53,409 nucleotides of DNA from Leucobacter sp. 7(1) (GTDB lineage: Bacteria; Actinomycetota; Actinomycetes; Actinomycetales; Microbacteriaceae): the NCBI RefSeq assembly GCF_900163635.1, contig NZ_FUID01000104.1:1-53409 (forward strand), written 5' to 3'. The notes under the pieces are model-generated. The model did not search any database. It was not told the origin of the DNA and saw nothing but the letters and a program-made list of their open reading frames with translations. Position 1 is the first letter of the stretch. Each line of letters begins with the position of its first letter. Positions 15,621 through 41,204 of this stretch are shown here, piece by piece. A program made the translations under genes and the position numbers.

Positions 15621-16373
15621 ATGCCCGCATCGATCAGTTCGCACGCGTTTATCGGCGAGGGCGTGACCCTCGGCGCCGACGTGACAATCGGCCCAGGTGC
15701 CGTGATCCTGGGCCCCTGCGTAATCGAAGCAGGGGCCTGGATCGGCCCTGGTGCCCAGATCGGCGCACCGCCCGAGATGTCGAGCCTGCGTCAGAACACG
15801 GCGTGGGCCGGTGATCTCGAACACGCGGGCGTCCACATCGGGGCCGGTGCCGTGATCCGCGAGGGTGCCGTAATCCATCAGGGCACATACCGGGAAACCA
15901 CCGTCGGACCGCGCAGCTGGGTACTCAACCGCGCCTACCTCGCGCATGATGTCCTACTCGGGGCCGACGCGACGGTCTCCGCGGGCGTCTCGATCGGCGG
16001 CCACTGTGTGATCGGTGACCGCGTGAACATTGGCATGAACGCCGTGGTACACCAGCGCCGCGTGATCGCACACGGCGCGATGGTGGGCATGGGTACTCCC
16101 GTTACCCGAGACGTCCCCCCGTTCGCGAAGGTGTACGGCACCCCACCCCGCCTCGCCGGTGTGAACGCGGTCGGGATGGAGCGCGCCGGGCACGACCCGG
16201 CCCTTGCCGAGGTGCTCGCCTCGCACTATGGCGAGGGTGAGTTGTTCACCAGCACCGAGTGTGTACCGGACGACCTCGGAACCCTGAGCGAGGCCGTGCG
16301 TTGGTGGCGCGCTCAAGGCGATCTGCGGCCTGTCTCAGTTGCTTCCCCAGATTTTGCAGCGCCGAGGAAGTAG
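15621..16373 (+). CDS. LpxA-fold (left-handed beta-helix) acyltransferase
   Basis: 250 aa. Hexapeptide repeats run through most of the protein (IGEGVTLGADVTIGPGAVI, HIGAGAVIREGAVIHQG, VSIGGHCVIGDRVNIGMNAV), then a short C-terminal helical tail, the layout of LpxA-type UDP-sugar acyltransferases. GAGGAG precedes ATG 15621, and a TAGCAT box lies at 15586-15591. A Gram-positive cell makes no lipid A, so this more likely acylates an amino sugar, perhaps the DegT product, for the surface polymer. It could use acyl-CoA or acyl-ACP. Confidence 0.8.
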   Translation: MPASISSHAFIGEGVTLGADVTIGPGAVILGPCVIEAGAWIGPGAQIGAPPEMSSLRQNTAWAGDLEHAGVHIGAGAVIREGAVIHQGTYRETTVGPRSWVLNRAYLAHDVLLGADATVSAGVSIGGHCVIGDRVNIGMNAVVHQRRVIAHGAMVGMGTPVTRDVPPFAKVYGTPPRLAGVNAVGMERAGHDPALAEVLASHYGEGELFTSTECVPDDLGTLSEAVRWWRAQGDLRPVSVASPDFAAPRK

Positions 16374-16376
16374 ACT
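16371..16376 (+). promoter_or_regulatory. -10 box (TAGACT) before leaderless ABC permease gene
   Basis: TAGACT begins with the stop codon of the preceding gene and lies 8 bases before GTG 16385. The same hexamer precedes the starts at 18401 and 33692. Confidence 0.45.
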
Positions 16377-16384
16377 CCTCTGTC

Positions 16385-17251
16385 GTGGCATATGTAGCAG
16401 CACTTTCCGACCCGGAGTTTGATACTCCAGGGAAGAGCAAGGGCCTCATCGATGTATTTCGACACCGGTACCTCCTCTCTCTTCTCCTCAAGAAGGGCAT
16501 CACCACCCGGTACTACGGGTCCGTGCTCGGCTGGGTGTGGTCGTATGTGCGACCCGCCGCACAATTCCTCATGTATTACCTCGTCATCGGGGTTGTACTC
16601 GGCGCGAACAGAGGCATGGATTTTTTCCCTGTCTACCTCTTCGCAGGGATTATCACTGTCAACCTCTTCAGCGAGGCGCTCCGAAACACTACCAACGCGA
16701 TCACGGACAACGCTGCTCTCGTGAAAAAGATCTACTTGCCAAGGGAGCTTTTCCCCGTTGCAGCCATCGGGGTCGCGTTCGTTCATTTTCTTCCTCAGGC
16801 CGCGGTTCTGCTCGCAGTATGTCTATTCCTCGGCTGGACGATTACTTGGATGCAAGTCCTTGCCTTCGCCGTCGGGTTGTTTGTTGTTCTGGTCTTCGCG
16901 CTCGGACTCGGTCTGTTCTTCGGGGCGATCAACGTCGCCTATCGTGATGCGCGCAACATCGTCGATTTGATTCTCATGTTCGCAACCTGGGCATCCCCGG
17001 TTCTCTATTCTTGGGAAATGGTTCACAAGCTCATGCCCGACTGGCTGTTCAACCTTTTCATGGTGAACCCGGTCACCACGGCAGTTGAACTCTTCCACAA
17101 CGTTTTCTGGCTCCCACTCGCGCCCGGCACGCCCCGGCCAGAGCATCTCCTCATCAATGCAGGGATCGGGCTTGTACTGGCGCTCATCACGCTGCTTATC
17201 GGCCAGTTCACGTTCCGAAAGCTGGAGGGGAATTTTGCCCAGCACCTCTAA
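16385..17251 (+). CDS. Wzm/TagG-type polysaccharide ABC permease
   Basis: 288 aa, ABC-2 transporter permease. After a cytoplasmic amphipathic start (SLLLKKGITTRYYGSVLG, typical of the family) there are about six hydrophobic helices. VNLFSEALRNTTNAITDNAALVKKI matches the region between helices in TagG/Wzm proteins, and ASPVLYSWEMV is the usual periplasmic loop. It pairs with the ATPase that overlaps it by 17 bases and exports lipid-linked polysaccharide or teichoic-type polymer. The start is chosen as GTG 16385 because of the upstream TAGACT; a longer frame to 16259 overlaps the previous gene. Confidence 0.9.
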   Translation: MAYVAALSDPEFDTPGKSKGLIDVFRHRYLLSLLLKKGITTRYYGSVLGWVWSYVRPAAQFLMYYLVIGVVLGANRGMDFFPVYLFAGIITVNLFSEALRNTTNAITDNAALVKKIYLPRELFPVAAIGVAFVHFLPQAAVLLAVCLFLGWTITWMQVLAFAVGLFVVLVFALGLGLFFGAINVAYRDARNIVDLILMFATWASPVLYSWEMVHKLMPDWLFNLFMVNPVTTAVELFHNVFWLPLAPGTPRPEHLLINAGIGLVLALITLLIGQFTFRKLEGNFAQHL

Positions 17252-22166: not shown

Positions 22167-25100
22167 CTACCGGCCACGCATACGTTGCAGTGCCAAGCGG
22201 ATCCGATCGCGAGTTCGCGCCCCGGGCGGACGAACACGATGTGACAGACCCGCGAACTCAGTGCGCAAGTGCTCGAGTTCCTTGCGGAGATGGTCGGCTT
22301 CACGATGGTTGGTTTTCTCCGTCCGCTGGTGCGCCCGTTCCAACTGCGCAATGCGGGCAGCATGATCCTCCACGTTGACCAGGTTGTTCATGCGGTACAT
22401 GTTCGTCGCCTCGTGAGCGACCCGTGACATCGCCAGCAACCGTTCGTCGTGCGCATCACCCCAAATCCACGAGCCCATCTCTGAGGTATCCGCTACCAAC
22501 ACGGGTTCGCGCGTGCGTATGCTCTGCACAATCGCGTCCCACCAACGCGACTGAAATGCCCGTTGTTCGACACCGGCCCCACTGACGTGGGCGGCAAGTT
22601 GATCGCGACGCAGACTCAGCGTTTCGAGGAGCGGAGCACCGAGAGCCGGAGTCCAGTACTCGAATGGCACGGCGAGCGATTCGACGCCAAACGCGGCCAA
22701 GGCCCCCCGCATCCGAAGAGCAGAATAGTAGCTCGTCACCAGCCCGATCGCAGGGACACCTACCGCGGCACCGAACACCAACGGGTGGTAACGAGTAGAC
22801 ACGGTGTATTCGGCCCCTGTGGTCACGGCAAGCACCTCCCGAGCGGAGATCATCGGCAAGGAACGCACTCGACCGCTCTGTGAGTAGTGCACCACGCGGT
22901 CGTGCCCATATACGTCATTGTCTCTGCCCGTTTGTTCTGCTGCTCCTAGTACACCCATATGCGGAAGTAGGACCACGTCGACTCCATGCGCTTCGACGAT
23001 CCCGTCGACAATGCGTGCGAGGTCACGGTAGTATTCTTCCCGGCCGAGGCCGGTCGAGTATGCGTGGAAGGTGAAGCTTCCCACTACGTATCGCGAAGGA
23101 AGCTTCATCGTTTCCAGCCGCTCACTAGAGAGCTCTACAGGATCCAACAGCAGGGCATCATCCAAGGTCTGCACAACGTTACCGATTCCAGCACCGATCT
23201 CCCGCATGAGCGCCGCGGTAGCGCGCTCACGAGCCCCGAATGCCGTGGCATACGACAGGAGTTCTCGCACCATTGGGCGGTCTTCAGGCACGAGCAGCGG
23301 CCCCACCGTCTGGCTCGAGATAAATAGCGGAACGCCCACCGCCTCGGCGATGCGTTTCAGCGCCACACGCTCAAAAATATGCTGCGAGCCGCTTGAGTTG
23401 AGATTCCCTCCCCCCGCAACGACGACGGCGTCGGCATTCTTCACAGCGGCCACGGTCAGTGCGTCGTCCGAGCTGAGTTCCGCACGTCCGCGCGCACCTG
23501 CCACCAATGCATCCAGGCGACGCACCCGGGCCGTCCGGGTCTTCTCCCTCACGAAACCGAAACTCGGCACCGCCTCCACGCCATAGTGTTCTCGCGTCAC
23601 CAAGGGATCGCCCGCAACCACTGTGACCTCACAGCCTCGCTCACGCAACTGAGCGATCGCAGCCTCAGTCATGGCTTCATCACCCAGGTGGTACCGGCCG
23701 TTCCAGCTCACATCCCCGATGACAAGCACGCGTGGTGCAATAAGGTCGGATCCAGCCTGAGCCGCAGCAACAAGCCGCGCGGGCCCGTGGAAAGTTGGGC
23801 ACAGTTCCCAGAGAGAAGAAACGCCGATGGCACCATCCCCAACGACTTCAACCTTTTCTTGGCCAAGTGCCTGAACGGGAGAATGGTTGGTCTGTCCCCG
23901 GGCGTCAGTCGCGATAGCGGTGAATTCGAGGACAGGCGACGCGAGCGTGCCGGGGTCGACTTGCGGAAGCGCGACTTCGGCGACCCAACTCACACCCTCA
24001 TCCGTCGCAGCGTGAGCCGTTGCCATCTGCTGGCGATTTCCCCCGTCAGCAACGAACAGGGAAAGCCGGGAACCTGGCTCACGCAATACGCCGATCGGGT
24101 CTGTGCTCCATCCATGCACCCGAATCGTTCGCTCGTCCACTTCGACCCGCTGGATCGCGTGCAGGTACATGAGGTTCGCATGGGTCCTCGGCACTCGGGG
24201 CACACCGTCCATTGCGCTCAGCTGCTTGGCGAGAGGAGTCGAAGAGGGGCGACTCTCCGGGTCGCGAGGCGCCCAGAAGCTGGGACTCATCTGGGTAAAG
24301 AATCTCCCGGACAGCGCGCCACCGAGCTTGCCGCGGAGTACCGCTCGCACTCCGTCGACGTCCCCCCCGAGCGCGGCAGCATAGAGTAGTCGGTCCCCAA
24401 GGAAACGGCGTTCAAACGCCTCCAACGGGGTACGTTCCAGACGCGGACGAATCATCTCCAGAACTACAGCGCACCATTCATCCTCAGCTTCGAGGAAGTC
24501 GTTCAGGTAGAACCGCAAGTGGTGCGCGATTACTTTGTCTTCGAACTCCGCACGGACTTCCTCGCCAGATTCCGCAAACGCGGTTTCTGCAAGATCGAGC
24601 GCTCGAAGGCGATCCTCGAGATTCTTTCGTGTGTGTCGCTGATTCGTGATCGACTGCCGTTCCTCACGCGGGTACACGTTCCAGTGGTATACCTCGGCTG
24701 TGATCTGCGCGATGCCCTGAGCCGCAGCAAGCGTGTGTGCTGAAAACACCACGTCCTCGTACAGCATTCCCTCCGGGAAACGAGCACCAATCCGCTCCAG
24801 GAACTCACGACGGTACAGCTTGTTGGTCGTGAGCGTGTCCTGTGATTCGGCGGGAATGTCTGCAAGGGTCGCCCCGTAGCGTAGCTCCGCGTGGAGATTC
24901 GGGAACCAAGGCACCCGACGATCTCCTTCGTTTCGGAGCACGCGCACCAGTAATCCCGATACGACGTCGGCCGCACTTCGTTCAGCTTCTTCCAGGAGCG
25001 ACGCAACTGCGCCAGAAGGAAGATCATCGTCAGAACCGAGGAACATGACGTAGCGCCCCCGGGCGAGCCGGAGCCCGTCATTCAGGGGCCCACCGGGAGC

Positions 25101-25313
25101 TCCTGAGTTCTCGCTCCGTCGGTGCGACCGAACACGCTGATCTTGAGTGAGAAACGCGGCGACGATCTCCGGCGTCTCATCCGTCGAGTGATCATCGCTG
25201 ATGATGACTTCGATGTTGCGATGAGTCTGGGTCAGAACCGAGTTTACCGCAACGGGGAGGTGGGCTGCATCGTTGTACCCAATAACGATGACGGAAACGT
25301 CGGGCACAGTCAT
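22167..25313 (-). CDS. GT2 glycosyltransferase - polysaccharide pyruvyltransferase fusion
   Basis: 1048 aa. Residues 1-330 are a GT2 domain: VSVIVIGYNDAAHLPVAV, SDDHSTDET and FLGSDDD (91-97). Residues about 370-485 are an uncharacterised beta-rich linker (TIRVHGWSTDP). Residues about 527-880 are a pyruvyltransferase (PF04230, CsaB/WcaK-like): YHLGDEAM (541-548), VAGGGNLNSSG, SSQTVGP (666-672) and VSTRYHPLVFGAAVGVPAI (838-856). The C-terminus (about 980-1025) is a coiled coil (RIAQLERAHQRTEK) with a basic end. Such enzymes put ketal-pyruvate from PEP on a sugar; fusion suggests one enzyme adds and then pyruvylates a residue. ATG 25313 has GGAGGA upstream. The adjacent secreted SLH-like proteins are natural candidates to bind the product. 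Confidence 0.88.
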   Translation of the reverse strand: MTVPDVSVIVIGYNDAAHLPVAVNSVLTQTHRNIEVIISDDHSTDETPEIVAAFLTQDQRVRSHRRSENSGAPGGPLNDGLRLARGRYVMFLGSDDDLPSGAVASLLEEAERSAADVVSGLLVRVLRNEGDRRVPWFPNLHAELRYGATLADIPAESQDTLTTNKLYRREFLERIGARFPEGMLYEDVVFSAHTLAAAQGIAQITAEVYHWNVYPREERQSITNQRHTRKNLEDRLRALDLAETAFAESGEEVRAEFEDKVIAHHLRFYLNDFLEAEDEWCAVVLEMIRPRLERTPLEAFERRFLGDRLLYAAALGGDVDGVRAVLRGKLGGALSGRFFTQMSPSFWAPRDPESRPSSTPLAKQLSAMDGVPRVPRTHANLMYLHAIQRVEVDERTIRVHGWSTDPIGVLREPGSRLSLFVADGGNRQQMATAHAATDEGVSWVAEVALPQVDPGTLASPVLEFTAIATDARGQTNHSPVQALGQEKVEVVGDGAIGVSSLWELCPTFHGPARLVAAAQAGSDLIAPRVLVIGDVSWNGRYHLGDEAMTEAAIAQLRERGCEVTVVAGDPLVTREHYGVEAVPSFGFVREKTRTARVRRLDALVAGARGRAELSSDDALTVAAVKNADAVVVAGGGNLNSSGSQHIFERVALKRIAEAVGVPLFISSQTVGPLLVPEDRPMVRELLSYATAFGARERATAALMREIGAGIGNVVQTLDDALLLDPVELSSERLETMKLPSRYVVGSFTFHAYSTGLGREEYYRDLARIVDGIVEAHGVDVVLLPHMGVLGAAEQTGRDNDVYGHDRVVHYSQSGRVRSLPMISAREVLAVTTGAEYTVSTRYHPLVFGAAVGVPAIGLVTSYYSALRMRGALAAFGVESLAVPFEYWTPALGAPLLETLSLRRDQLAAHVSGAGVEQRAFQSRWWDAIVQSIRTREPVLVADTSEMGSWIWGDAHDERLLAMSRVAHEATNMYRMNNLVNVEDHAARIAQLERAHQRTEKTNHREADHLRKELEHLRTEFAGLSHRVRPPGARTRDRIRLALQRMRGR

Positions 25314-25509
25314 ATTGCTGGTCCTCCGGAGTTCAGACTTGGCGCGAGCGAAATCCGCCCAGCGCTACCCCCTAAGAGTATCCGCTGAGTCACTACAAAA
25401 GCGCTCGACGCGTGTTCTGCCAATGGCCCGGGCACTCGAGCGTTTTCTCTGCGTTCACGGTACGATTACCTCGGTACATTGGCTTGCATCTCCGGGAGAA
25501 CCGAACGAA

Positions 25510-28161
25510 ATGATCCACGATTCCTCGGCCCCGGTCCGGGTCACCACAAACGAGCGCGCTGCCCGAGATGATTCAATCCCGCAGCTCAGCCTCGTCATCC
25601 CCTGCTACAACGTTGAGACCTATCTCCCCGTTCTGCTCCGCAGCCTTGACGCACAGGACTGTGATCCTGCCGCGATCGAACTAATTTTCGTGATCGACGG
25701 TTCGCCAGACGACTCCGAGCATGTGGTCGCAGAGTGGATGCCACGTTCTCAGTTCCCCGTCTCGCTCGTCGTACAGGAGAACCGTGGCGTCTCGGGAGCC
25801 CTCAACACTGGCCTTGAACAGGCACGGGGAGAATGGGTGTCTTTCTCAGGACCCGATGATGAGCTCTCCTCCAACTACTTCTCCGAGATCCTCGCGGGGG
25901 CTCAATCGTTCCCAGATATCGACATCATAGTTACTCGACTCATTCGCGTTGCCAGCTCAGGCAGGGTGGTTTCGCACCCGCTCGACTACAAATTCGCTGA
26001 TCGTATAGAAGCTTTCGTAGTCGATTTACATCAGACGCCCGGAATGATTCATTTGGCGGGTGGCACGATCGCCCTCCGACGTATTCGGGTGGAGGAGACT
26101 GACGTAACGCACGACGAGACCCTACGAAGCGGCTTCGAAGACGCACAACTTATCTCGCAGTTCCTGCTTCGGCTACCCGAGGCCAGGTATCTCATCGTGC
26201 CGCAGGCACACTACTACTATCATTCGCGCGCCGATTCGATCGTTGCGACCGCCTCCTCGGATTACGCCCGCAAGCTCCCGCTGTTCGAAACGGTGTATGG
26301 GCGTCTGCTCGACGAGGCCGGTGACACCTGTCCTGCTTGGCTAGCGAATGTAATTCTGTACGACATGTACTGGGTGTTCCGCCAGTTCATGCAGTTCCGT
26401 TCGAGCGTTTTCGCGTTGGATTCTGATGCCAATGATCGTTTTGACTCCGCGGCTCGTCGGGTCCTTCGCCGGATTGGCCTCTCCCACATTCAAGCTTTCC
26501 GAGTTGTGAATGTGCCGCTCGATATTCGCTCCGCCTGGGAAGCTGCGGTCGACCCGGCTGCGGTCACCTCCGTAGCTATCGTGCGTGAACAGGATCAGAC
26601 TCGGAGTCTCAGCAAGATTGCTTACCACACGGGCGTTCCTGATCAGGAAGCAGTGGTCTCGCGTGGGGGCGAACGTAGTTCGCTTGCATACACAAAGAGC
26701 CGGGCATTGCTCTATTTTGGCCGCCCTTGGGCATACGAAAATATCTATTGGGTAGCCGACCCCGACAATCTGGGAGACATTTCGGAACTGCACTTCTCCT
26801 CCCCCGGCTGCTCCTTCTTTGCGGACGGATCGGTTTTCACTACCAGGGATGCCGGGCGTGCACTACAGAAGACTCCCCCCCGCCCTGGCCCGCCTGTGCC
26901 AGGGCCACGGCCACAAACTTCGCCCCCATCTGGGCGGGCCGTTCGAGCTCGGGCAGCCCGGGAACGGCGACTCAGACTGTCCTATTCGCTCGCATACCGG
27001 CTCGGAGGATTGCTTGGCTGGCGGAAGAAGTTTACAGATGCCTGGGTCCTTATCGATCGGAACACTCAGGCGAACGACAACGCCGAGGCCCTGTACCGGT
27101 ATCTCAGGGACGCACGACCCGACATCAACGCTTGGTTTGTGATTGGTAAGGGAACCAGCGATTGGACCCGCCTGAAATCAGACGGGTTCCGACTTGTCGC
27201 GCACGGCAGCAAGAAGCACTTCGCGCTGATGAAAGAAGCGAAAGTCCTTTCATCATCAATGATCGACCAGTACATCGTGCAGCCGTTCCCCAAGCGGTTC
27301 CTTCCAAAGACCTGGAGCTACTCGTTCCTACAGCACGGCGTCACGAAGGACCTGTTGCACCGGTGGTGGAACTCCAAGACCGTCGACCACTTTGTTACCT
27401 CAACTCTCCCTGAGCATCACTCGATCGCTGGAAGCCCGTCACCGTATAAGCTCTCCGAACGCGAGGTCACGCTCACTGGCATGCCCCGCCACGACCGCCG
27501 ATTCCGGCTCATGCAAGAAGCTCCATCACGTCAACCGGGAACTCACCGTATCGTGCTGATGCCGACTTGGCGGAACTATCTTCTCGGCGCAAACACCGGC
27601 GCTGAGCGGGATCAGCTCGATAGCTTTGCAGAATCGCAGTTCGTCACCGAATGGTCCGGGTTCCTCAACGGCTCGTATCTCTCCGAATTGTCACAGCGGC
27701 CTGGGGTCGAAGTCATTCTGCTCCCGCATCCGGGAATAGACACACATTGGAAGGACCTCGTAGTCCCGCCCGGAATTCGCCGCGTTTCCTATGTTGGGGA
27801 TGATGTGCAGGAGATACTGGCTGGCGCGACGCTCGTCATTACGGACTATTCATCCCAGGCATTCGAGGGCGCGTTCTGCGATGCTCCCTCCGTCTACTTC
27901 CAGTTCGACAGAGTCGAGTTCTTCTCAGGCGGGCACATCGGTTCACCCGGCTACTTCGACTACTTCCGGGACGGGTTCGGCCCGGTATGTGAGGACCGCG
28001 CAACGCTTGAGCAGAACCTCGAGGAAATGATCTTGGGTACGCACCCTGAGCTCGCAGAGTATCGACGCCGCATCGAGCGACTCTACCCGTTCCAGGACGG
28101 CAAGGCCTCTGAGCGAATCGTCGGCGAGATTGAAGCCAGACTTCGCCCTTACGGGCGCTAG
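25510..28161 (+). CDS. GT2 - CDP-glycerol glycerophosphotransferase fusion
   Basis: 883 aa from ATG 25510 (GGGAGAA upstream); an extension to 25273 would overlap the divergent gene and lacks domain content. Residues 25-250 are GT2: LSLVIPCYNVETYLPVLL, VIDGSPDDSE, and SGPDDE at 113-118. A proline- and arginine-rich linker follows near residues 455-490. Residues about 520-870 are TagF-like: FLQHGVTKDLLHRWW (606-620), LMPTWRNYL, LLPHPGID and ITDYSSQAFEGAF (777-789). It likely adds a sugar and then a polyol-phosphate, analogous to the 18401 gene but with a GT-A rather than a GT-B partner. Divergent from the pyruvyltransferase with a 196-base intergenic region. Confidence 0.87.
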   Translation: MIHDSSAPVRVTTNERAARDDSIPQLSLVIPCYNVETYLPVLLRSLDAQDCDPAAIELIFVIDGSPDDSEHVVAEWMPRSQFPVSLVVQENRGVSGALNTGLEQARGEWVSFSGPDDELSSNYFSEILAGAQSFPDIDIIVTRLIRVASSGRVVSHPLDYKFADRIEAFVVDLHQTPGMIHLAGGTIALRRIRVEETDVTHDETLRSGFEDAQLISQFLLRLPEARYLIVPQAHYYYHSRADSIVATASSDYARKLPLFETVYGRLLDEAGDTCPAWLANVILYDMYWVFRQFMQFRSSVFALDSDANDRFDSAARRVLRRIGLSHIQAFRVVNVPLDIRSAWEAAVDPAAVTSVAIVREQDQTRSLSKIAYHTGVPDQEAVVSRGGERSSLAYTKSRALLYFGRPWAYENIYWVADPDNLGDISELHFSSPGCSFFADGSVFTTRDAGRALQKTPPRPGPPVPGPRPQTSPPSGRAVRARAARERRLRLSYSLAYRLGGLLGWRKKFTDAWVLIDRNTQANDNAEALYRYLRDARPDINAWFVIGKGTSDWTRLKSDGFRLVAHGSKKHFALMKEAKVLSSSMIDQYIVQPFPKRFLPKTWSYSFLQHGVTKDLLHRWWNSKTVDHFVTSTLPEHHSIAGSPSPYKLSEREVTLTGMPRHDRRFRLMQEAPSRQPGTHRIVLMPTWRNYLLGANTGAERDQLDSFAESQFVTEWSGFLNGSYLSELSQRPGVEVILLPHPGIDTHWKDLVVPPGIRRVSYVGDDVQEILAGATLVITDYSSQAFEGAFCDAPSVYFQFDRVEFFSGGHIGSPGYFDYFRDGFGPVCEDRATLEQNLEEMILGTHPELAEYRRRIERLYPFQDGKASERIVGEIEARLRPYGR

Positions 28162-28171
28162 ATACACGCAA

Positions 28172-28200
28172 GGGTAGAGAACTGCCACGGTTCTCCACCC
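28172..28200. terminator. Hairpin terminator between convergent genes
   Basis: GGGTAGAGAAC (28172-28182) and GTTCTCCACCC (28190-28200) form an 11-bp stem with one mismatch and a 7-base loop. It lies 10 bases after the TagF-like stop and 20 bases beyond the end of the convergent SLH-like gene, so it fits a shared terminator. Confidence 0.7.
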
Positions 28201-28219
28201 CTGGCAGTCCTTCCGCAAC

Positions 28220-30061
28220 TCAGTGATTTAACCGGTAGATAAATGCCGCCATTGCTTCACGGGAGACGCGATCCTTCGGTGTGTATTTTGGCTTCCCCGA
28301 AGGCTGCTTCATCCCTGTGGAGTAGCCCATCTTGTGCATCCAAGTGATCTCGTTGTAGAACTTGTCACCCTTGCGCATGTCGGCGAACGGCGAGGTCGCC
28401 GGTCCCGAGTACTTCGCTCCCTCGAGACGGTAGATGAACGCGGCCATCGCCTCACGTGAGACTCTGTCCTTCGGCGCATACTTCGGCTTGCCGGAGGCTT
28501 GTTTGATACCAGTGGAGTAGCCCATCTTGTGCATCCAAGCGATCTCGTTGTAGAAAGGATCACCGCGCTTCACATCCGCGAACGGCGAAGTCGCCGGGCC
28601 TATGTAGGTTGCCCCCTGCATTCGATAGAGGAATGCTGCCATTGCCTCTCGGGAAACTCGGGTCTTCGGCTGGTACATGGAGGCGCGGCCGTCAGACGTC
28701 TTGATTCCCGTGCTCAGCCCGCTCGTCCCCATCCACTCGATCTCCTTAAAGAACTTGTGGTTCTGGGGGACGTCTGGGAAGAACGTGTTTGGGGTGCCGA
28801 ACCACTGCTTATAGAACTGATAGAAGTTTCGGTTGCCATAGCTGGAGCATCCGTTTCCCTCGCCCCACCCGGCATCGAGTGCCGCTTGATTGGGTCGGTA
28901 AGGCGTATAGATGTAGAGCGCCGCTGTCGCCCAGTTCTCGATGTACACCGGCGACGTCCCACAACCCAGGTTTGGGTGCCACTGAATCATGTTGTTCTGG
29001 AACGGGCGGTATCGATAGTTGTTCGGGTTGGCCCGGTACACCTTCAACTGCCAGGCACCTCGGTAGACCTGCTGCATGAAACCGGTGTCGCCTGCGTTGC
29101 AATTGGCCGAATTATTGGGTCCTGAGTCAGGGCAGTTATATCCCATAGCGAAGTTAAACTGGCGGATGGTCGGCCAGGTGTCTGTGACGAGACTCTGCTC
29201 TTTCTCAAGCATCACGAGCAAGACTTTCGGGCTAATCCCGCAGGCCTGCGCCACCTTTGCGATCACTGACGCCGATGATTCAGACGCCGTCCCCTGATAG
29301 GCCTTGCAGTAGGCATTTGCTGGCCGAGTCAGCGATGTCGTATTCCATTTGGCATCCTTCAAGCAGCCCCAGGCAAGCGTGGTATTTCCCCATGCCTTGC
29401 CCATCTCGCGCCCTGTATCCCCCAGCGTGCACCGCGGCACCCGTTGGTTGAGGAAGGTCTGGATTTGAGCAGCACTCATCGCGTTGCCGTTGTAGAAGTT
29501 CGAGTCCGAGATGATGTATCCGGCTTTGAACCCGCTCGCGAGATTCGCGCGAGACGTGATCGCGTTGTTCTGGGCTGCAAGCTGCGCCGCACGCTTCTCC
29601 GCTTCCTGGGCGCGCTGCTCCTCGGTGAGCGGCGTCAGCGGTTCTTCCTCCGTAGGCTCGGAGTTCGGTGCAGGCTTCAGATCATCCAGCTCCGTGGGCG
29701 CGACAGGGTCCGCGATAAGCTCCGGAGACTCCGACTCCTCAGGCGTGCTCGATTCGTTCGGATCTTCCGGAGAGCCGGGGGACTGCGGTTCGCTCTCCTT
29801 ACCGAGACCGGGATAATCCGGGTTAGGTTCACTCCCCGGGTTCGGCTGGGGGTCCGTCGCCGGGTTCGAGGTGGTCGGCGGCACCGATTCCTCCAGGTCC
29901 CCCGGCGCATTGAGCTCGGCCCAGAGCGCGGCAGCGGAGGCTGTCGGGTCAGACGCCGCGACCGGTGCGTCCGCGGCCGAACTCGTCGCAGGTGCGATCA
30001 GCCCCGCGAACATCGCGAGTGCAATGGCAAGCGGGAAGAGTTCTCGGGTGCGCCGGATCAT
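28220..30061 (-). CDS. Secreted protein with cysteine-rich domain and three SLH-like repeats
   Basis: 613 aa. A signal peptide (about residues 1-30: basic MIRRTREL, then ALAMFAGLIAP, then SSAADA) is followed by a Pro/Glu-rich stretch to about 145. A domain at about 165-425 begins SNFYNGNAMSAAQIQTFL. It is rich in cysteines and contains LVMLEKEQSLV, which recalls the catalytic-Glu segment of lysozyme-like enzymes; this is not assured. Residues 428-613 are three SLH-like repeats of 55-66 residues, each ending SREAMAAF(L/I)YR. Start ATG 30061 has AAGGTGG upstream. It is exported, likely held on the wall by the repeats, and may process peptidoglycan or polymer. Confidence 0.8.
   Translation of the reverse strand: MIRRTRELFPLAIALAMFAGLIAPATSSAADAPVAASDPTASAAALWAELNAPGDLEESVPPTTSNPATDPQPNPGSEPNPDYPGLGKESEPQSPGSPEDPNESSTPEESESPELIADPVAPTELDDLKPAPNSEPTEEEPLTPLTEEQRAQEAEKRAAQLAAQNNAITSRANLASGFKAGYIISDSNFYNGNAMSAAQIQTFLNQRVPRCTLGDTGREMGKAWGNTTLAWGCLKDAKWNTTSLTRPANAYCKAYQGTASESSASVIAKVAQACGISPKVLLVMLEKEQSLVTDTWPTIRQFNFAMGYNCPDSGPNNSANCNAGDTGFMQQVYRGAWQLKVYRANPNNYRYRPFQNNMIQWHPNLGCGTSPVYIENWATAALYIYTPYRPNQAALDAGWGEGNGCSSYGNRNFYQFYKQWFGTPNTFFPDVPQNHKFFKEIEWMGTSGLSTGIKTSDGRASMYQPKTRVSREAMAAFLYRMQGATYIGPATSPFADVKRGDPFYNEIAWMHKMGYSTGIKQASGKPKYAPKDRVSREAMAAFIYRLEGAKYSGPATSPFADMRKGDKFYNEITWMHKMGYSTGMKQPSGKPKYTPKDRVSREAMAAFIYRLNH
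28223..28780 (-). repeat. Three SLH-like repeats encoded in tandem
   Basis: The two C-terminal units are 195 bases apart and almost identical at DNA level (compare GAGTAGCCCATCTTGTGCAT at about 28319 and 28515). The third, N-terminal unit is more diverged. Recent unit duplication or gene conversion is likely. Confidence 0.75.
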
Positions 30062-30089
30062 ACGTTCCACCTTAGAGTCTGGTCTTCGC

Positions 30090-30117
30090 ACTCAGCAGTA
30101 GGAACTATCCGCTGAGT
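30090..30117. promoter_or_regulatory. Inverted repeat upstream of the SLH-like gene
   Basis: ACTCAGC (30090-30096) and GCTGAGT (30111-30117) pair, with an inner GGA/TCC. The element lies between the end of the CHAP gene (30219) and the start of the SLH-like gene (30061). It could be an operator for the latter or a terminator of the former. The 12-mer TATCCGCTGAGT inside it also occurs at 25379-25390. Confidence 0.4.
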
Positions 30118-30218
30118 AGCTTCTGCGTCAAAAAGGGCGAGGCCACGTTTGCGGCTGAGACGGGATCGGGTCGGGAGTAGTCGAAGCCCCCCGGAACCCG
30201 CGGGCATTGTGTACTTCG

Positions 30219-33200
30219 TCACCCTTGCGTCTCCATTCGGTACAGGAACGCCGCCATCGCTTCACGGGAAACTGCGCCGGCCGGAGAATACTTGGGTTTC
30301 CCCGAGGGCTGGCGGATGCCTGTCGAGAGCCCCGAATCGTACATCCAGGAAATCTCACGGTAGAACCGGTCTCCCGGTCGGAGGTCAGCGAAGCGAGTAC
30401 TTCCGGGGGCCGTGTATGTGGGGCGCTCGAGGCGGTACAGGAACGCGGCCATCGCTTCACGAGAGACCGGAGCTTTCGGGTCATAGACCAGACCGCGAGA
30501 CGTCTTGATCCCGGTGCTCAGGCCGACAGCGTGCATCCAGGCGATCTCACGATAGAACTGATGGTTTGTCGGTACGTCCACAAACGGTGAACTTGACGGT
30601 GCTGTGAACGACTTGTCTGCAGCTAGACGGAACAGGAAGGCGGCCATGGCTTCACGGGTGACGTTTGCCTTGGGTTGATATTTTGGATTACCCGACGGTT
30701 GCTTCACCCCAACGGACAGCCCGGAGCTGAACATCCATCCGATTTCGCGGGAGAACTTGTGGCTGGTCGACACGTCGGCGAATGGCGGCTTCGCTGGCAC
30801 CACCGGGGTTCCAGGGATCTTGACCATTTCCGAGCCGGCAACCGCGTTCGCGTACCCGTTCTTTGTACCGGTCACAGAGACTGACAGCCTATGTGCGACG
30901 TCTTCCTGTGTCACGCGGTAGCTTGCACGATTCGCTCCAGAGATTGCGGATCCGTTCCGGTACCACTGATAGCTCAGCGTGACCGGCGCGGGACCCCACG
31001 CACCGGGTTGCGCGATGAGGGTGGATCCCTTCGCCGGAGTCCCGGTGATCCGGGGCGATTCCGGCGTCAAGATCCCGGGCGCGACGGTGTAGTTCTGCGA
31101 CTCCCGCGTCACACTGGCGTATGCGGGCTTGCTCCCGACCGTTCGGAATGCAATTCGTGCTCCCCGATCCGCGGGGGTCAAGGTGTAGCTCGCACCTGTC
31201 GCACCGGAGATCGCTTTGCCGTCACGCAGCCACTGGGAGGAGAGCTTTACCGGTGAGGGCTGCCACTGCCCAGTGCTCGCCGTCACCCTCGCCCCCACGC
31301 GCACCTGTCCAGCAATCTGAGGGGTGGGGCGCTGCGCAAGTGTGAGGATCCCGACGGCGCGCGGGTGCGCGGTGACGTTCCATCCGCCAGCCGCAGACCC
31401 CATGCCGGCGTGCTCAACCCGGGATGCCCCAAACGACTTGCCGGAGCTTTTCGCGATCCTGACTCCGTCGGCGCTGAAACCCACAATATCGGCGCGTCCG
31501 TCTCCGTCGACGTCGGTCACTTGACGCGGCAGCGTATTGTTGCGCCACGCTTTGCCCCCGAATTCGCCGGACCACCGCACCGGCGCGGCGAATCCTGTGC
31601 CGGTACTCAGCGCAACGGTGACCCCGTCGTTGTCGAAGCCTACGACGTCGGCACGACCATCGCCGTTCACGTCTGCCAGGACCCGAGGGTGCGCGCCCAC
31701 GAGCCAGCCCGCGACTGTGCCGAAACCACCGCGCCAACGTTTCATAGCCCGGAGCCCGTTGCCAGAGTTGAGTGCGACGTACACACCGTCGGAAGCGAAC
31801 GCCACCAGGTCTGGGCGACCATCGCCGTCGACGTCCGCGAGGGTCCGGGGATGTGCGGCCATGCTCCACCCGTCTTTCCCGGCGAACTGCGCGCTCCACT
31901 GCTTTGCCCCTGAGAACCGCGTGCCGATGTTGAGCGCCACGTACACCCCGGCATTCGAGATACCAACCACATCCGGCCGACCATCACCGTTCATGTCCTG
32001 CAGGAACCGCGGGGTCTTGTCGACGGTCCACCCCTTCGCAGTTCCAAAACCGTCGTACCACTTCTGCATTCCCGCGAAGCCGGAGCCCGTGTTCAGTGCG
32101 ACGTAGACGCCGTCGGAGGCGAACGCCAAGATGTCGGCGCGGCCGTCGCCATTCACATCGACAAGCGTGCGCGGATGATGCTGCACAGACCACCCGTCGG
32201 CCGCCCCGAACTGTGCGGTCCACCGCTTCATCGCCGAGAATCCGCTCCCCGTACTGAGCGCGACGTATACGCCGTCCTCGGCGAATCCCACCACATCGGA
32301 CTTGCCGTCGCCATTGACGTCGATGAGTGTGCGCGGATGGCGTGCCGGAGTCCAGCCTGTCCCCGTCCCAAATCCTGACACCCAGGTCTTCGCCGCACCG
32401 AAGCCGGTCTTGGTCCGCAGCGCGACCTGCACGCCGCTGCTCCCGAAGCCGACGGCGTCCGGTAGTCCGTCCGCGTTCACGTCGGAGTTCCAGGGAAGCA
32501 TCTCCTGTGTATCGTCGATCCCGTTCCCGTTGCCGTCCGCCATCTGCACCGCACCGGTCGCGGCTGACACCGTGGAGGCGGGGCGGTAGCGCTGCAGGTC
32601 TCCCGTCGTTTCGACAGTGATGCGCTTCCCGAGGTCAGCTAGCACGGGCTGGTAGCTCGACTTCGTGGCCCCCGTGATCGCCACGCCGTCGCGCAGCCAC
32701 CGGTAGCGGTAGCTCGTGGGCTTCGGTGCCCAGCCGGACACCGCGGCGGTGAGTGTGCCGCCCACTATCGGCGCACCGGTGATTGTCGGCTTTGTCGTTT
32801 TGGTGAATGCAGAAGTGAGATCCGCGATGTGAATATAGCCCTGGAACTCGTTCGCACGAATCGTGCGGCTGTAGTAGGCCCCGGCCCACCCGTAGTTGTA
32901 TTCCTCGATGACCACGCGGCCATCGCTGAGCACGTCCGCGACCCAGGCGACGTGACCAAACTCGGAGGCCCCGCCGTACCAAGGTCCGCTCCACGCGATC
33001 GCCCCGACCTCGGGAGTCGTGTCCACACGGATACCGAGGCTCCGGGCCGAAGCACCCCACTCCGCAGCGTTGCCCCAGCGGACGAGCCCGCCGTACTGGT
33101 TACTGAACGGGATCTTGTTCGCCGTGTTGAGCCGCCACGCGACAAACGAGGTGCACTGCCGGTGCGCAAAGTTCCACTCGTCCCAGCGCACCGGGTACAG

Positions 33201-33692
33201 CGGATACTGCTTGTATTTCTGCGGGTAGTTGTCGCCGATCAGGGGTCGGGCAGCGGCGTTCGTGAGTGGCGGGATTGCTCGCCCGTCCCACGGCTTCGCG
33301 CTCGCCGGCCCGGGCGAATCCGAGACGATGCCACCGTTGGCACCGCGAGGTTCCTGGTCTGCGGGGTCGGGAGTCGGTGCGGGATCGGGGATCGGTGTCG
33401 GATCCGGCATCGGTGCGGGATCGGGATCCGGTGCCGGATCCGTCGGGCCCGGGTCCGGGGTCACTGGCGGCGGCGTCACAGGCGGTGTCGGTTCACCGGG
33501 CTCGGTGGGCTGCGCCGGATCGCTGCCCGTTTCGGGCGCGACGGTGGGCGCGTCTGTGGGCGCTTCGACCACCGTACGCAGCGGTTCGGCGGCCGCCGGC
33601 GGACCCGCAACCACGCCCCCGAGCAGGGCGATTCCGAGGGTGATCCCGAGAGTTCTGGCGGCGTGCCGGTGTGCGCGTCCTCCCGAATGCAT
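30219..33692 (-). CDS. Secreted CHAP amidase with VCBS, Ig-like and SLH-like repeats
   Basis: 1157 aa. A signal peptide (residues 1-35) precedes a Pro/Asp-rich spacer with PDP units (about 60-115). The CHAP domain (about 150-292) has C180 in HRQCTSFVAW, H247 in FGHVAWV and the IEEYNYGW segment (about 262-269), supplying the catalytic Cys-His and a polar residue. One Ig-like module (about 300-385), seven VCBS/FG-GAP units with DxNGDG-type loops (403-780), two more Ig-like modules and three SLH-like repeats (971-1157) follow. It is probably a wall-bound peptidoglycan amidase/endopeptidase. A TAGACT box 6 bases before ATG 33692 suggests a leaderless mRNA. Confidence 0.85.
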   Translation of the reverse strand: MHSGGRAHRHAARTLGITLGIALLGGVVAGPPAAAEPLRTVVEAPTDAPTVAPETGSDPAQPTEPGEPTPPVTPPPVTPDPGPTDPAPDPDPAPMPDPTPIPDPAPTPDPADQEPRGANGGIVSDSPGPASAKPWDGRAIPPLTNAAARPLIGDNYPQKYKQYPLYPVRWDEWNFAHRQCTSFVAWRLNTANKIPFSNQYGGLVRWGNAAEWGASARSLGIRVDTTPEVGAIAWSGPWYGGASEFGHVAWVADVLSDGRVVIEEYNYGWAGAYYSRTIRANEFQGYIHIADLTSAFTKTTKPTITGAPIVGGTLTAAVSGWAPKPTSYRYRWLRDGVAITGATKSSYQPVLADLGKRITVETTGDLQRYRPASTVSAATGAVQMADGNGNGIDDTQEMLPWNSDVNADGLPDAVGFGSSGVQVALRTKTGFGAAKTWVSGFGTGTGWTPARHPRTLIDVNGDGKSDVVGFAEDGVYVALSTGSGFSAMKRWTAQFGAADGWSVQHHPRTLVDVNGDGRADILAFASDGVYVALNTGSGFAGMQKWYDGFGTAKGWTVDKTPRFLQDMNGDGRPDVVGISNAGVYVALNIGTRFSGAKQWSAQFAGKDGWSMAAHPRTLADVDGDGRPDLVAFASDGVYVALNSGNGLRAMKRWRGGFGTVAGWLVGAHPRVLADVNGDGRADVVGFDNDGVTVALSTGTGFAAPVRWSGEFGGKAWRNNTLPRQVTDVDGDGRADIVGFSADGVRIAKSSGKSFGASRVEHAGMGSAAGGWNVTAHPRAVGILTLAQRPTPQIAGQVRVGARVTASTGQWQPSPVKLSSQWLRDGKAISGATGASYTLTPADRGARIAFRTVGSKPAYASVTRESQNYTVAPGILTPESPRITGTPAKGSTLIAQPGAWGPAPVTLSYQWYRNGSAISGANRASYRVTQEDVAHRLSVSVTGTKNGYANAVAGSEMVKIPGTPVVPAKPPFADVSTSHKFSREIGWMFSSGLSVGVKQPSGNPKYQPKANVTREAMAAFLFRLAADKSFTAPSSSPFVDVPTNHQFYREIAWMHAVGLSTGIKTSRGLVYDPKAPVSREAMAAFLYRLERPTYTAPGSTRFADLRPGDRFYREISWMYDSGLSTGIRQPSGKPKYSPAGAVSREAMAAFLYRMETQG
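30222..30782 (-). repeat. Three SLH-like repeats at the CHAP protein C-terminus
   Basis: Units of 57-66 residues begin F(A/V)D(V/L) and end REAMAAFL(F/Y)R. The first unit has VTREAM, the other two VSREAM. They are more diverged from each other than those at 28223-28780. Confidence 0.75.
31353..32486 (-). repeat. Seven VCBS/FG-GAP repeats
   Basis: The repeated pattern D(V/M)(N/D)GDGR(A/P)D(V/I/L)VGF recurs at an interval of about 54 residues (162 bases). The DxNxDG loops resemble calcium-binding loops of FG-GAP beta-propellers, and seven units fit one propeller. Confidence 0.7.
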
Positions 33693-38802: not shown

Positions 38803-40194
38803 CTACTCCTGCGACCCCGCCTCGGCGGCTGCCGCGACACCGTCCGCAACAAGTTGCTGGATCGTGGCGAAGTCGGGGTCCTCCGGATCCACCGCCGGCG
38901 GCACCAATTCGACGCTGAGCGGTGCGTGCTCGCGGGCCTTCGCCGCGAGATCTACAAATCGACCCAGCATCGACTCCGGGATGTCAGTCTCGACAAGCTC
39001 CGTGCCCGCCGCCGCAACATCCTGGAACCGCAGCAACACGTTGCTCGGATTCATCTGCGCGAGGATTGCGGCTTGCAGCTCCCGCTGCCGCTCCATCCGG
39101 GAGTAGTCACCCGCAGCGGAGCCGTAGCGCGAGCGCGCGTACCACTGCGCCGCGTAGCCGTCCATGCCCTGCAGGCCTGGCTCGATCCAGCCCTCAACGT
39201 TGTTGCCGAACTCGTCGCCGCCGATGGGGAGACGTTCCTTGACGTCGATGGTGATCCCACCGAGCGCGTTGATGAGGCTCTCGAACGCGTCCATGTTGAC
39301 GAGTACGTAGAACTGCACCTCGAGGCCAGTGGCCCCGGTCACCGCGTCCTTCGTCGCTTCGATTCCCGGGGACGACCCCTGAGACACCGCGTTCGGGTAG
39401 AGCTCAGGGTAGTAGTACTCAGTCTCAGCGAACAGACCATTCAGGATGCAACGCCCCACCTCGCAGCCACCCCACTCGCCGTACGTGTTGGGGGCGACGC
39501 CGAAGCCGTTCGGGTGCAGCTCGTACATGGGCGAGTCCTCGGGGAACGGCGCGTTCGCAAGTTCGCGCGGGATCCCCACGATCACAGACTGCCCGGTCTT
39601 CGCGTCCACGCTCACGAGCGAGATACTGTCGGGGCGCATACCCTCGCGGTCCGCACCAGCATCCGTGCCGAGCAGCAGAATATTGTAGCGGCCGTCCACG
39701 GGCTCGACCGCGGGTGCCCCGCTGAACAGGCCACTCAGCAGCACCCGGCCCGCGTTGATCGTCGAGGCGGCCCACGCCGCGCCCGTCACCGGGACAAGGG
39801 TCAAGATGATCGCGAGCATCGCGATCGGAACCTTCCACCCGCGGTGCACCCGGGACAGCCGGGTGAGCTTCAGGGTATTGAGCCCCAACACAAGCCACAG
39901 CACCGCGTACCCAATAAGGAGAATCTGGAGCGCCAGCAGCACCACGCTGTTCGTGAAGAACGACAGCGTCGCCACCCGCGCGAAGAGCAGGCCGCCGAAC
40001 GTGGCCAGCAGTCCCACGATCAGAATGATCGTGGCGGTCAGCCCGACGCGGCCCAGCTTGCGGTTTCCCGCGAGCAGCTGCGCGCTGCCCGGCAGCAGAA
40101 ACCCGATCACCACAAGCCACCGGGCGCGCTTGGTCATCAGCGGCGGCGACTCGAGGTCCGGGTTCCGTAGCGGACGCTCCAGGTCAAGACTCAT
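38803..40194 (-). CDS. LytR-CpsA-Psr (LCP) family wall-polymer ligase
   Basis: 463 aa. Four hydrophobic helices occupy about residues 25-145, an unusually long membrane part compared with one-helix LCPs. The extracellular LCP domain begins NILLLGTDAG and includes SLVSVDAKTG, VIVGIPREL and YARSRYGSAAGDYSRMERQR, whose arginines bind lipid pyrophosphate. LCP enzymes transfer polymers from undecaprenyl-phosphate to peptidoglycan, here plausibly the glycopolymer of this cluster. The ATG overlaps the galE stop (40191-40194). Four-helix LCPs are common in actinobacteria. Confidence 0.92.
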   Translation of the reverse strand: MSLDLERPLRNPDLESPPLMTKRARWLVVIGFLLPGSAQLLAGNRKLGRVGLTATIILIVGLLATFGGLLFARVATLSFFTNSVVLLALQILLIGYAVLWLVLGLNTLKLTRLSRVHRGWKVPIAMLAIILTLVPVTGAAWAASTINAGRVLLSGLFSGAPAVEPVDGRYNILLLGTDAGADREGMRPDSISLVSVDAKTGQSVIVGIPRELANAPFPEDSPMYELHPNGFGVAPNTYGEWGGCEVGRCILNGLFAETEYYYPELYPNAVSQGSSPGIEATKDAVTGATGLEVQFYVLVNMDAFESLINALGGITIDVKERLPIGGDEFGNNVEGWIEPGLQGMDGYAAQWYARSRYGSAAGDYSRMERQRELQAAILAQMNPSNVLLRFQDVAAAGTELVETDIPESMLGRFVDLAAKAREHAPLSVELVPPAVDPEDPDFATIQQLVADGVAAAAEAGSQE

Positions 40195-41204
40195 CCGGCG
40201 TATCCACCCGGGTTCGACGACTGCCAGTTCCAGGAGTCGCGGCACGCCTCGTCGAGCGAGCGCGTGGTGCGCCAGCCTAGCTCTTCGTTCGCGAGGCTCG
40301 GATCGGCGACCATCGCGGCGACGTCACCGGCGCGCGCCGGCGCGACCGTATAGGGTACCGGGCGCTCGGCCGCGAGCTCGAAGGCACGCACGACCTCGAG
40401 CACGCTCGACCCCGTGCCCGAACCAAGGTTGAAGGTGCGGACGCCGGGAGCGGGCTGCTCGAGCGCCGCCACGTGCCCCTCGGCAAGGTCCATCACGTGG
40501 ATGTAGTCGCGTACGCCCGTGCCATCCGGGGTATCGTAGCTGTCGCCGAAAACGCTGAGCCGCTCGCGTGTTCCCACAGCGACCTGCGCGATGAACGGCA
40601 TCAGGTTGTTCGGGATCCCACTCGGATCCTCACCGATGCGACCCGACGGATGCGCGCCGACCGGGTTGAAGTAGCGCAGCAGGACCGCGTTCAGCTCCGG
40701 CCACGCGGCCTGCGCGTCCCGGATGATCTGCTCGTTCATGAACTTGGTCCAGCCGTACGGGTTCGTCACCCCCACACCCACTCGGTGCTGCTCGTCGATC
40801 GGTGAGGTCTCCGGATCGCCGTACACAGTCGCGGAGGAGCTAAACACCAAGTTGGTGACGCCGCGCTCGCGCATCAGGTCAAGCAGCACCAGCGTGGAGT
40901 CGATATTGACGCGGTAGTAGCGCACAGGCTCGGCTACCGATTCACCGACAGCCTTCAGCCCCGCGAGATGGATCACCGCGTCAAATTCGACGCCGTGAAG
41001 TGCGGCGCTTGCCGCTGCACGATCCGCAAGATCCGCCTCGATCACCGGGATCGATGCGTCGCAGAGCGCCTCCACTCGCCGCACCGCCTCCGCACTGCTG
41101 TTCGAAAAGTCGTCGAGCACGATCACATCGTGCCCGCGCTCCACAAGGACGAGTGCGGTGTGCGAGCCGATGTACCCGGCGCCACCTGTCAGCAAAACAC
41201 GCAT
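40191..41204 (-). CDS. galE: UDP-glucose 4-epimerase
   Basis: 337 aa. LLTGGAGYIGSHTALVL binds NAD; SSSATVYG and NPYGWTKFMNE carry the catalytic Ser-Tyr-Lys set (YxxxK as YGWTK). Interconverts UDP-Glc and UDP-Gal, supplying Gal for the glycans and possibly galactan. ATG 41204 follows a TACCCT box by exactly 7 bases (41212-41217), suggesting a leaderless mRNA. Its stop overlaps the LCP start. A different 4-epimerase specificity is possible, since the active site varies in this family. Confidence 0.93.
   Translation of the reverse strand: MRVLLTGGAGYIGSHTALVLVERGHDVIVLDDFSNSSAEAVRRVEALCDASIPVIEADLADRAAASAALHGVEFDAVIHLAGLKAVGESVAEPVRYYRVNIDSTLVLLDLMRERGVTNLVFSSSATVYGDPETSPIDEQHRVGVGVTNPYGWTKFMNEQIIRDAQAAWPELNAVLLRYFNPVGAHPSGRIGEDPSGIPNNLMPFIAQVAVGTRERLSVFGDSYDTPDGTGVRDYIHVMDLAEGHVAALEQPAPGVRTFNLGSGTGSSVLEVVRAFELAAERPVPYTVAPARAGDVAAMVADPSLANEELGWRTTRSLDEACRDSWNWQSSNPGGYAG

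Follow-up and report, generated by a model that had tools for sequence, protein, structure and literature searches.

In the genome of the actinobacterium Leucobacter sp. 7(1), the stretch analysed here (the window: all 53,409 nucleotides of contig NZ_FUID01000104.1) carries the gene of a polysaccharide pyruvyltransferase, P0002, close to the genes of two secreted proteins, P0004 and P0005, that end in S-layer homology (SLH) repeats (Table 1). Judging from gene content, we think it quite probable that this locus makes a pyruvylated polymer of teichoic-acid type and encodes two of its 14 binding proteins, and that SLH repeats ending in REAMAAF and P0002-type enzymes form a cognate pair. An earlier note on this DNA had proposed an SLH anchoring system with its ligand-making enzyme close by, in what it took for an actinobacterium; the nearest relatives are indeed Leucobacter, and the proposal is supported by the finding of P0002 as the sole PF04230 gene in the genome, by the predicted SLH fold of the P0004 triad and by the co-occurrence of both gene kinds across genomes.

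SLH triads and their putative ligand

P0002 is a GT2 glycosyltransferase fused to a pyruvyltransferase, as first described, with 103.1 bits for PF00535 (GT2, residues 7-175) and 119.8 bits for PF04230 (PS_pyruv_trans, residues 543-861). Filing it as CsaB was rejected, since it scored 72.3 bits against TIGR03609, whose equivalog cut-off is 213.1. The SLH family PF00395 was found above its Pfam cut-off (20.8 bits) in both P0004 (25.9 bits) and P0005 (34.7 bits, whole proteins in each case), and three repeats stand at the C-terminus of each protein, in agreement with the earlier note. The note was also right that Arg is kept and that Glu sits one position earlier than in TRAE. The ending SREAMAAF that it gave for the repeats holds for five of the six; the first repeat of P0005 ends in TREAMAAF. 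Nor is the motif special to these two proteins, as 14 SLH-triad proteins were found in the genome, on 11 contigs, and all 42 of their repeats have [ST]REA in place of the literal TRAE (22 SREAMAAF, 17 TREAMAAF and 3 near variants). The closest triad, with 95% identity, belongs to L. chromiireducens subsp. solipictus.

A motif unlike TRAE and low single-repeat Pfam scores (13.4-21.6 bits, five of the six window repeats being listed) could mean that these are degenerate or unrelated helical repeats and not functional SLH domains. We consider this extremely improbable, and a non-SLH identity was rejected on the alignment to Sap, in which Lys lies opposite Trp in repeats 1 and 3 and Phe opposite Trp in repeat 2, with gaps, and on structure prediction, which folds the P0004 triad as SLH, a pseudo-trimeric spindle of three repeats.

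According to the available text on Paenibacillus alvei SpaA (PMC6081394), Trp13, Gly29 and Arg43 contribute to ligand binding, a backbone flip of Gly29 is needed for it, the aromatic residue at SLH-13 stacks on N-acetylmannosamine (ManNAc), and the motif occurs as TVEE and TRAQ even in SpaA. In the same text the motif Glu makes no ligand contact; the suggestion that its shift changes recognition chemistry was therefore rejected. With SLH numbering transferred through the GIIxG and TRAE motifs, the residues corresponding to Gly29 (G35/G101/G166) and Arg43 (R54/R119/R184) do not vary in alignments A1 and A2, the latter holding 36 of 43 triads (L049, with a stop in range, L065, L072, L092, L100, L105 and L112 were left out). 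The triad range in L. coleopterorum (L049:10001-10603) has one stop codon in single-frame translation. Trp13, by contrast, has been replaced: all 42 repeats of the genome have K, P, Q or R before an invariant Phe; this loss alone does not exclude SLH membership, because P. alvei SlhA may have Tyr at that position (PMC6081394, available text). No match to PF03808 (TagA/WecG) was found in the genome at E 1, and the same holds for 11 of 19 triad-bearing related genomes, including 7 of 8 named Leucobacter, so the system does not always include a ManNAc transferase of the Firmicutes type. Given the loss of Trp13 and the lack of TagA, the ligand of the Leucobacter triads may differ from the canonical one of Firmicutes.

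These two absences, which make a canonical pyruvylated ManNAc ligand unlikely, also favour an alternative in which pyruvate is incidental and the triads bind the wall through another anionic group, such as a teichoic polyol phosphate read by Arg43, or through peptidoglycan. The glycerophosphotransferase domains and TagGH-like exporter of the locus would suit such binding, as would the conserved Arg of CWB2 domains, which is thought to meet anionic polymer (PMC6081394, available text). Gly29, whose flip is required for ligand binding in SpaA, is however invariant here, and the triads co-occur and are linked with a pyruvyltransferase, so that we hold this alternative to be very unlikely.

Co-occurrence and linkage across the order

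Among 396 genomes of the order, PF04230 was present in 73 of 86 SLH-positive genomes against 174 of 310 SLH-negative ones (odds ratio 4.4, p 6e-7) and, at genus level, in 21 of 23 against 55 of 87 (p 0.01), in counts that ignore the species tree. Within the family (199 genomes), it was found in 6 of 7 genomes with a triad-profile match (E 1e-5) and in 94 of the 192 others. The earlier note had counted SREA-type repeats widespread in genomes lacking a pyruvyltransferase as evidence against its idea, and the opposite was found. The 76 triad loci kept (from the best 80 of 218 matches) come from 23 named genomes, and PF04230 was present in every one of these; it was likewise present in all 24 SLH-positive genomes of the order-wide draw with an Arg-reading REAMAAF codon pattern, a pattern that was not confirmed for each genome to fall within an SLH reading frame. 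Some genomes belong to both the named and the unnamed set (G218 and G487, for example, share coordinates), so the two are not independent. From the 29 genomes with the REAMAAF pattern, G226, G473, G501 and G591, whose sole match reads Ser (AGC), and G557, which is not SLH-positive, were set aside; with them included the count is 26 of 29, G473 and G591 being those of the five that have PF04230. The pattern was absent from all 13 SLH-positive genomes in which PF04230 was not matched, and a control pattern written backward had no match in any row.

The association extends to one enzyme subfamily. A profile of 36 P0002-type domains (A3), with scoring limited to 7 candidates per genome, gave at least 247 bits in 35 genomes of a 297-genome draw and 71 bits for the next match; membership of this draw, whose genomes are partly listed, was taken to comprise the handles up to G508. 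An A3 match was found in 17 of 20 REAMAAF SLH-positive genomes against 18 of 277 others (p 2e-15), in 10 of 11 against 6 of 84 genera, and within genus g94 in 5 of 6 against 0 of 16, figures that carry a bias, as 19 draw genomes, including 14 of those 17, supplied rows to the profile and SLH-negative genomes supplied none. Without the 19 donors the figures were 3 of 6 versus 13 of 272 (p 0.003) overall and 2 of 3 versus 0 of 16 (p 0.018) within g94. In these comparisons REAMAAF-type SLH repeats and P0002-type pyruvyltransferases look like partners that several families of the order have retained jointly.

Physical linkage was assessed around the pyruvyltransferases of 72 SLH-positive genomes, of which 120 of 129 regions (67 of 72 genomes) were used. 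An SLH protein lay within about 10 kb in 40 of the 120 regions (35 of 67 genomes, 14 genera, 6 families) and no more than 2 kb from the pyruvyltransferase match in 27 genomes; the chance expectation was 4.6 genomes, or 11.5 with each SLH match taken as its own gene. Where the open frames were less than 1.5 kb apart (29 pairs), the SLH gene was upstream on the same strand in 15, downstream on the same strand in 8 and on the opposite strand in 6. In family f12, SLH and enzyme frames were at most 109 bases apart in 15 of 15 linked cases, 14 of them on one strand. On the enzyme tree adjacency is scattered, with 19 changes among 115 rows, so that various lineages have lost it, retained it or acquired it again.

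In the window itself, the claim that enzyme and binders are neighbours stands for the locus and fails for immediate adjacency, because P0003 intervenes. The same gene order, P0002-P0003-P0004-P0005, recurs in L. chromiireducens, L. sp. PH1c, L. musarum and L. sp. L43, the last two having about 4 kb extra between P0004 and P0005. Relatives of P0004/P0005 occur in the loci examined of L. celer, L. coleopterorum and L. massiliensis with no enzyme within the stretch examined, although PF04230 is present in every one of these genomes. In another genus of the family (G040) an SLH gene adjoins the only PF04230 match, and in G180, G153, G007 and G070 triads and PF04230 are both present and were not seen side by side, being on other contigs or distant. 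A Pfam check of ten SLH-adjacent enzymes found six fused to GT2 and four with no second domain; the pyruvyl domain comes first in L183, L225, L236, L264 and L289, and GT2 comes first in L197, like P0002. Family f4 (L191, L192, L213, L268, L275-L277) has SLH genes near pyruvyltransferases in 8 of 8 examined genomes, and its enzymes are short open frames (351-452 amino acids), none of which a phmmer search with the P0002 domain recovered.

Several observations, together with the limits given above for the counts and the loss of Trp13, weigh against a cognate pair. PF04230 was not matched at E 1e-5 in 13 of the 86 SLH-positive genomes, 6 of them in genus g94, and only 2 of the genome's own 14 SLH genes lie near P0002. 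The exception among the family's seven, G096, is of the same genus as the window; its SLH protein is divergent and PF04230 was not matched in it; we rejected it as a plain counterexample, since its repeats read TRSAM, TRALM and TRQEF and not REAM, yet it is still SLH-positive. Within g94, any SLH and any PF04230 are unassociated (18 of 24 against 6 of 9, p 0.68). Finally, 9 of the 35 genomes with a P0002-type enzyme are SLH-negative, so that the enzyme can evidently occur in the absence of SLH readers. Five genomes of family f7 (G371, G399, G444, G485 and G494) have a P0002-type enzyme and no SLH match; a pyruvylated polymer may exist there, or be older, without SLH readers.

The lack of association within g94 and the SLH-negative carriers of the enzyme would fit a relation of neighbourhood only, in which both gene kinds sit in envelope-polysaccharide islands and pyruvylation provides charge, a capsule or phage avoidance instead of anchoring; Actinobacteria do have pyruvylated wall polymers with no protein partner known from the available text of PMC6801904. 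Such an arrangement is nevertheless unlikely in our judgement, given that PF04230 is commoner in SLH-positive genomes, that REAMAAF tracks one enzyme subfamily even without the profile donors, that the f12 pairs are so close, and that the only pyruvyltransferase found here shares its genome with 14 SLH-triad proteins.

The locus and a proposed mechanism

We read the Leucobacter locus, from its gene families, as a wall-polymer locus of teichoic-acid type: it holds CDP-glycerol glycerophosphotransferase domains, a TagGH-like exporter and a LytR-CpsA-Psr (LCP) protein. TagH and TarF models match there below their equivalog cut-offs.

Table 1. Positions in the window of the genes and domains discussed
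Feature	Position	Strand	Description
ABC-2 membrane protein	16259-17251	+	PF01061; TagG-like export permease by position and family
P0006	17085-18362	+	TagH-like ATPase for teichoic acid export; top NCBIfam models score under their cut-offs; start uncertain
P0001	18401-22129	+	CDP-glycerol glycerophosphotransferase domain and GT4 glycosyltransferase
P0002	22167-25313	-	1048 amino acids; fusion of a GT2 glycosyltransferase and a polysaccharide pyruvyltransferase (PF04230 at 22731-23687)
P0003	25273-28161	+	GT2 and CDP-glycerol:glycerophosphotransferase domain; between P0002 and the SLH genes
P0004	28220-30091	-	623 amino acids, secreted; C-terminal SLH triad
P0004 SLH triad	28223-28798	-	three SREAMAAF repeats
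P0004 Cys-rich domain	28784-29557	-	residues 179-436
P0005	30219-33692	-	1157 amino acids, secreted; CHAP domain, FG-GAP repeats, Ig-like domain, C-terminal SLH triad
P0005 SLH triad	30228-30800	-	TREAMAAF, SREAMAAF, SREAMAAF (protein order)
P0007	33758-34645	-	GT2 glycosyltransferase; synteny with P0004/P0005 within Leucobacter
P0008	34629-36425	-	probably secreted; Ig-like repeats; no SLH match
P0010	37222-38799	-	sulfatase-fold protein, PF00884
LCP protein	38803-40245	-	PF03816; enzyme type joining wall polymers to peptidoglycan

The true start codon of P0003 is uncertain, as the listed TTG overlaps P0002, and that listed for P0008, in the same cluster, is probably too early. P0010 we take to be like lipoteichoic acid synthase. 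P0006 has an LGFP repeat (PF08310), a wall-associated element, near its C-terminus, on a cytoplasmic ATPase. The N-terminal region of P0004 matches no Pfam family at E 0.001 and has a weak fold match to GH73/lysozyme-like glycosidases. Its Cys-rich domain has an invariant Glu in a QKEQSL-like stretch and recurs in 16 further loci examined, the copies in L204 and L279 lying within 5 kb of a pyruvyltransferase.

In the mechanism that we propose from these domains, the GT2 half of P0002 would add a sugar to a lipid-linked polymer and the PF04230 half would place a pyruvate ketal derived from phosphoenolpyruvate on that sugar. The polyol-phosphate parts would be built by glycerophosphotransferases of the P0001/P0003 type, after which the TagGH-like transporter would export the polymer and the LCP protein would link it to peptidoglycan. 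Secreted SLH triads would then dock on the pyruvate carboxylate through Arg43 and Gly29 of each repeat, holding wall hydrolases (the CHAP domain of P0005, perhaps a lysozyme-like domain in P0004) and other cargo on the wall. A wider reading is that the order has an SLH anchoring of its own, in which a distinct, often GT2-fused subfamily pyruvylates a non-ManNAc sugar of a teichoic-acid-type polymer. A co-evolved class of SLH repeats (Phe for Trp13, STG at Gly29, [ST]REAMAAF) would read the pyruvylated sugar and carry whole sets of surface proteins. We see this as evenly poised, having thought it slightly better than even until the A3 donor bias and the SLH-negative enzyme carriers were counted.

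Comparison with known systems

Most of what is known of SLH anchoring on pyruvate concerns Bacillus and related bacteria, with descriptions for Bacillus and Paenibacillus in the available texts of PMC6081394 and PMC6030368, and the Leucobacter case would be a variant of it in actinobacteria. SLH proteins have been listed from Micrococcales and Bifidobacteriales (PMC5817068, available text), and pyruvate ketals on wall glycopolymers or teichoic acids from Promicromonospora, Nocardiopsis and Brevibacterium, with no function named in the available part of PMC6801904. The linkage joins these two sets of observations in the same phylum, naming an enzyme and candidate binders from genes alone. No description of an SLH-pyruvyltransferase linkage across these actinobacteria was found in the literature searched, most subscription journals being outside its reach; the nearest is a sentence in the available text of PMC10057886, in which an S-layer gene and a pyruvyltransferase gene of Bifidobacterium both go down in stationary phase and the Bacillus mechanism is cited. 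The SLH surface proteins of Propionibacterium freudenreichii and Bifidobacterium are likewise SLH proteins of actinobacteria, but the genome-wide coupling, the enzyme subfamily and the motif pair were not found in the available parts of those accounts.

If true, SLH reading of pyruvate would reach beyond ManNAc and Firmicutes-type envelopes, and would offer candidate surface proteins for nematode-interacting Leucobacter. L. celer CBX151 (e.g. L048, L053, L057) and L. musarum CBX152 (L050, L075, L076), nematode-pathogenic in the available accounts, have several SLH-triad proteins each, candidate factors in nematode contact.

Bacillus has murein hydrolases anchored by SLH domains, and P0005 with its CHAP domain resembles them as hydrolase cargo on an SLH triad, whereas the N-terminal region of P0004 belongs to no Pfam family. 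With the CsaB system of Bacillus and Paenibacillus and its pyruvylated secondary cell-wall polymer, the Leucobacter system shares SLH triads on secreted proteins, PF04230 in a wall-polymer locus, and Arg43 and Gly29. It differs in a GT2-fused enzyme that scores far below the CsaB cut-off, in the lack of a TagA/WecG match here and in most of the related genomes, and in a C-terminal triad with S/TREA and no Trp13, surrounded by genes of teichoic-acid type.

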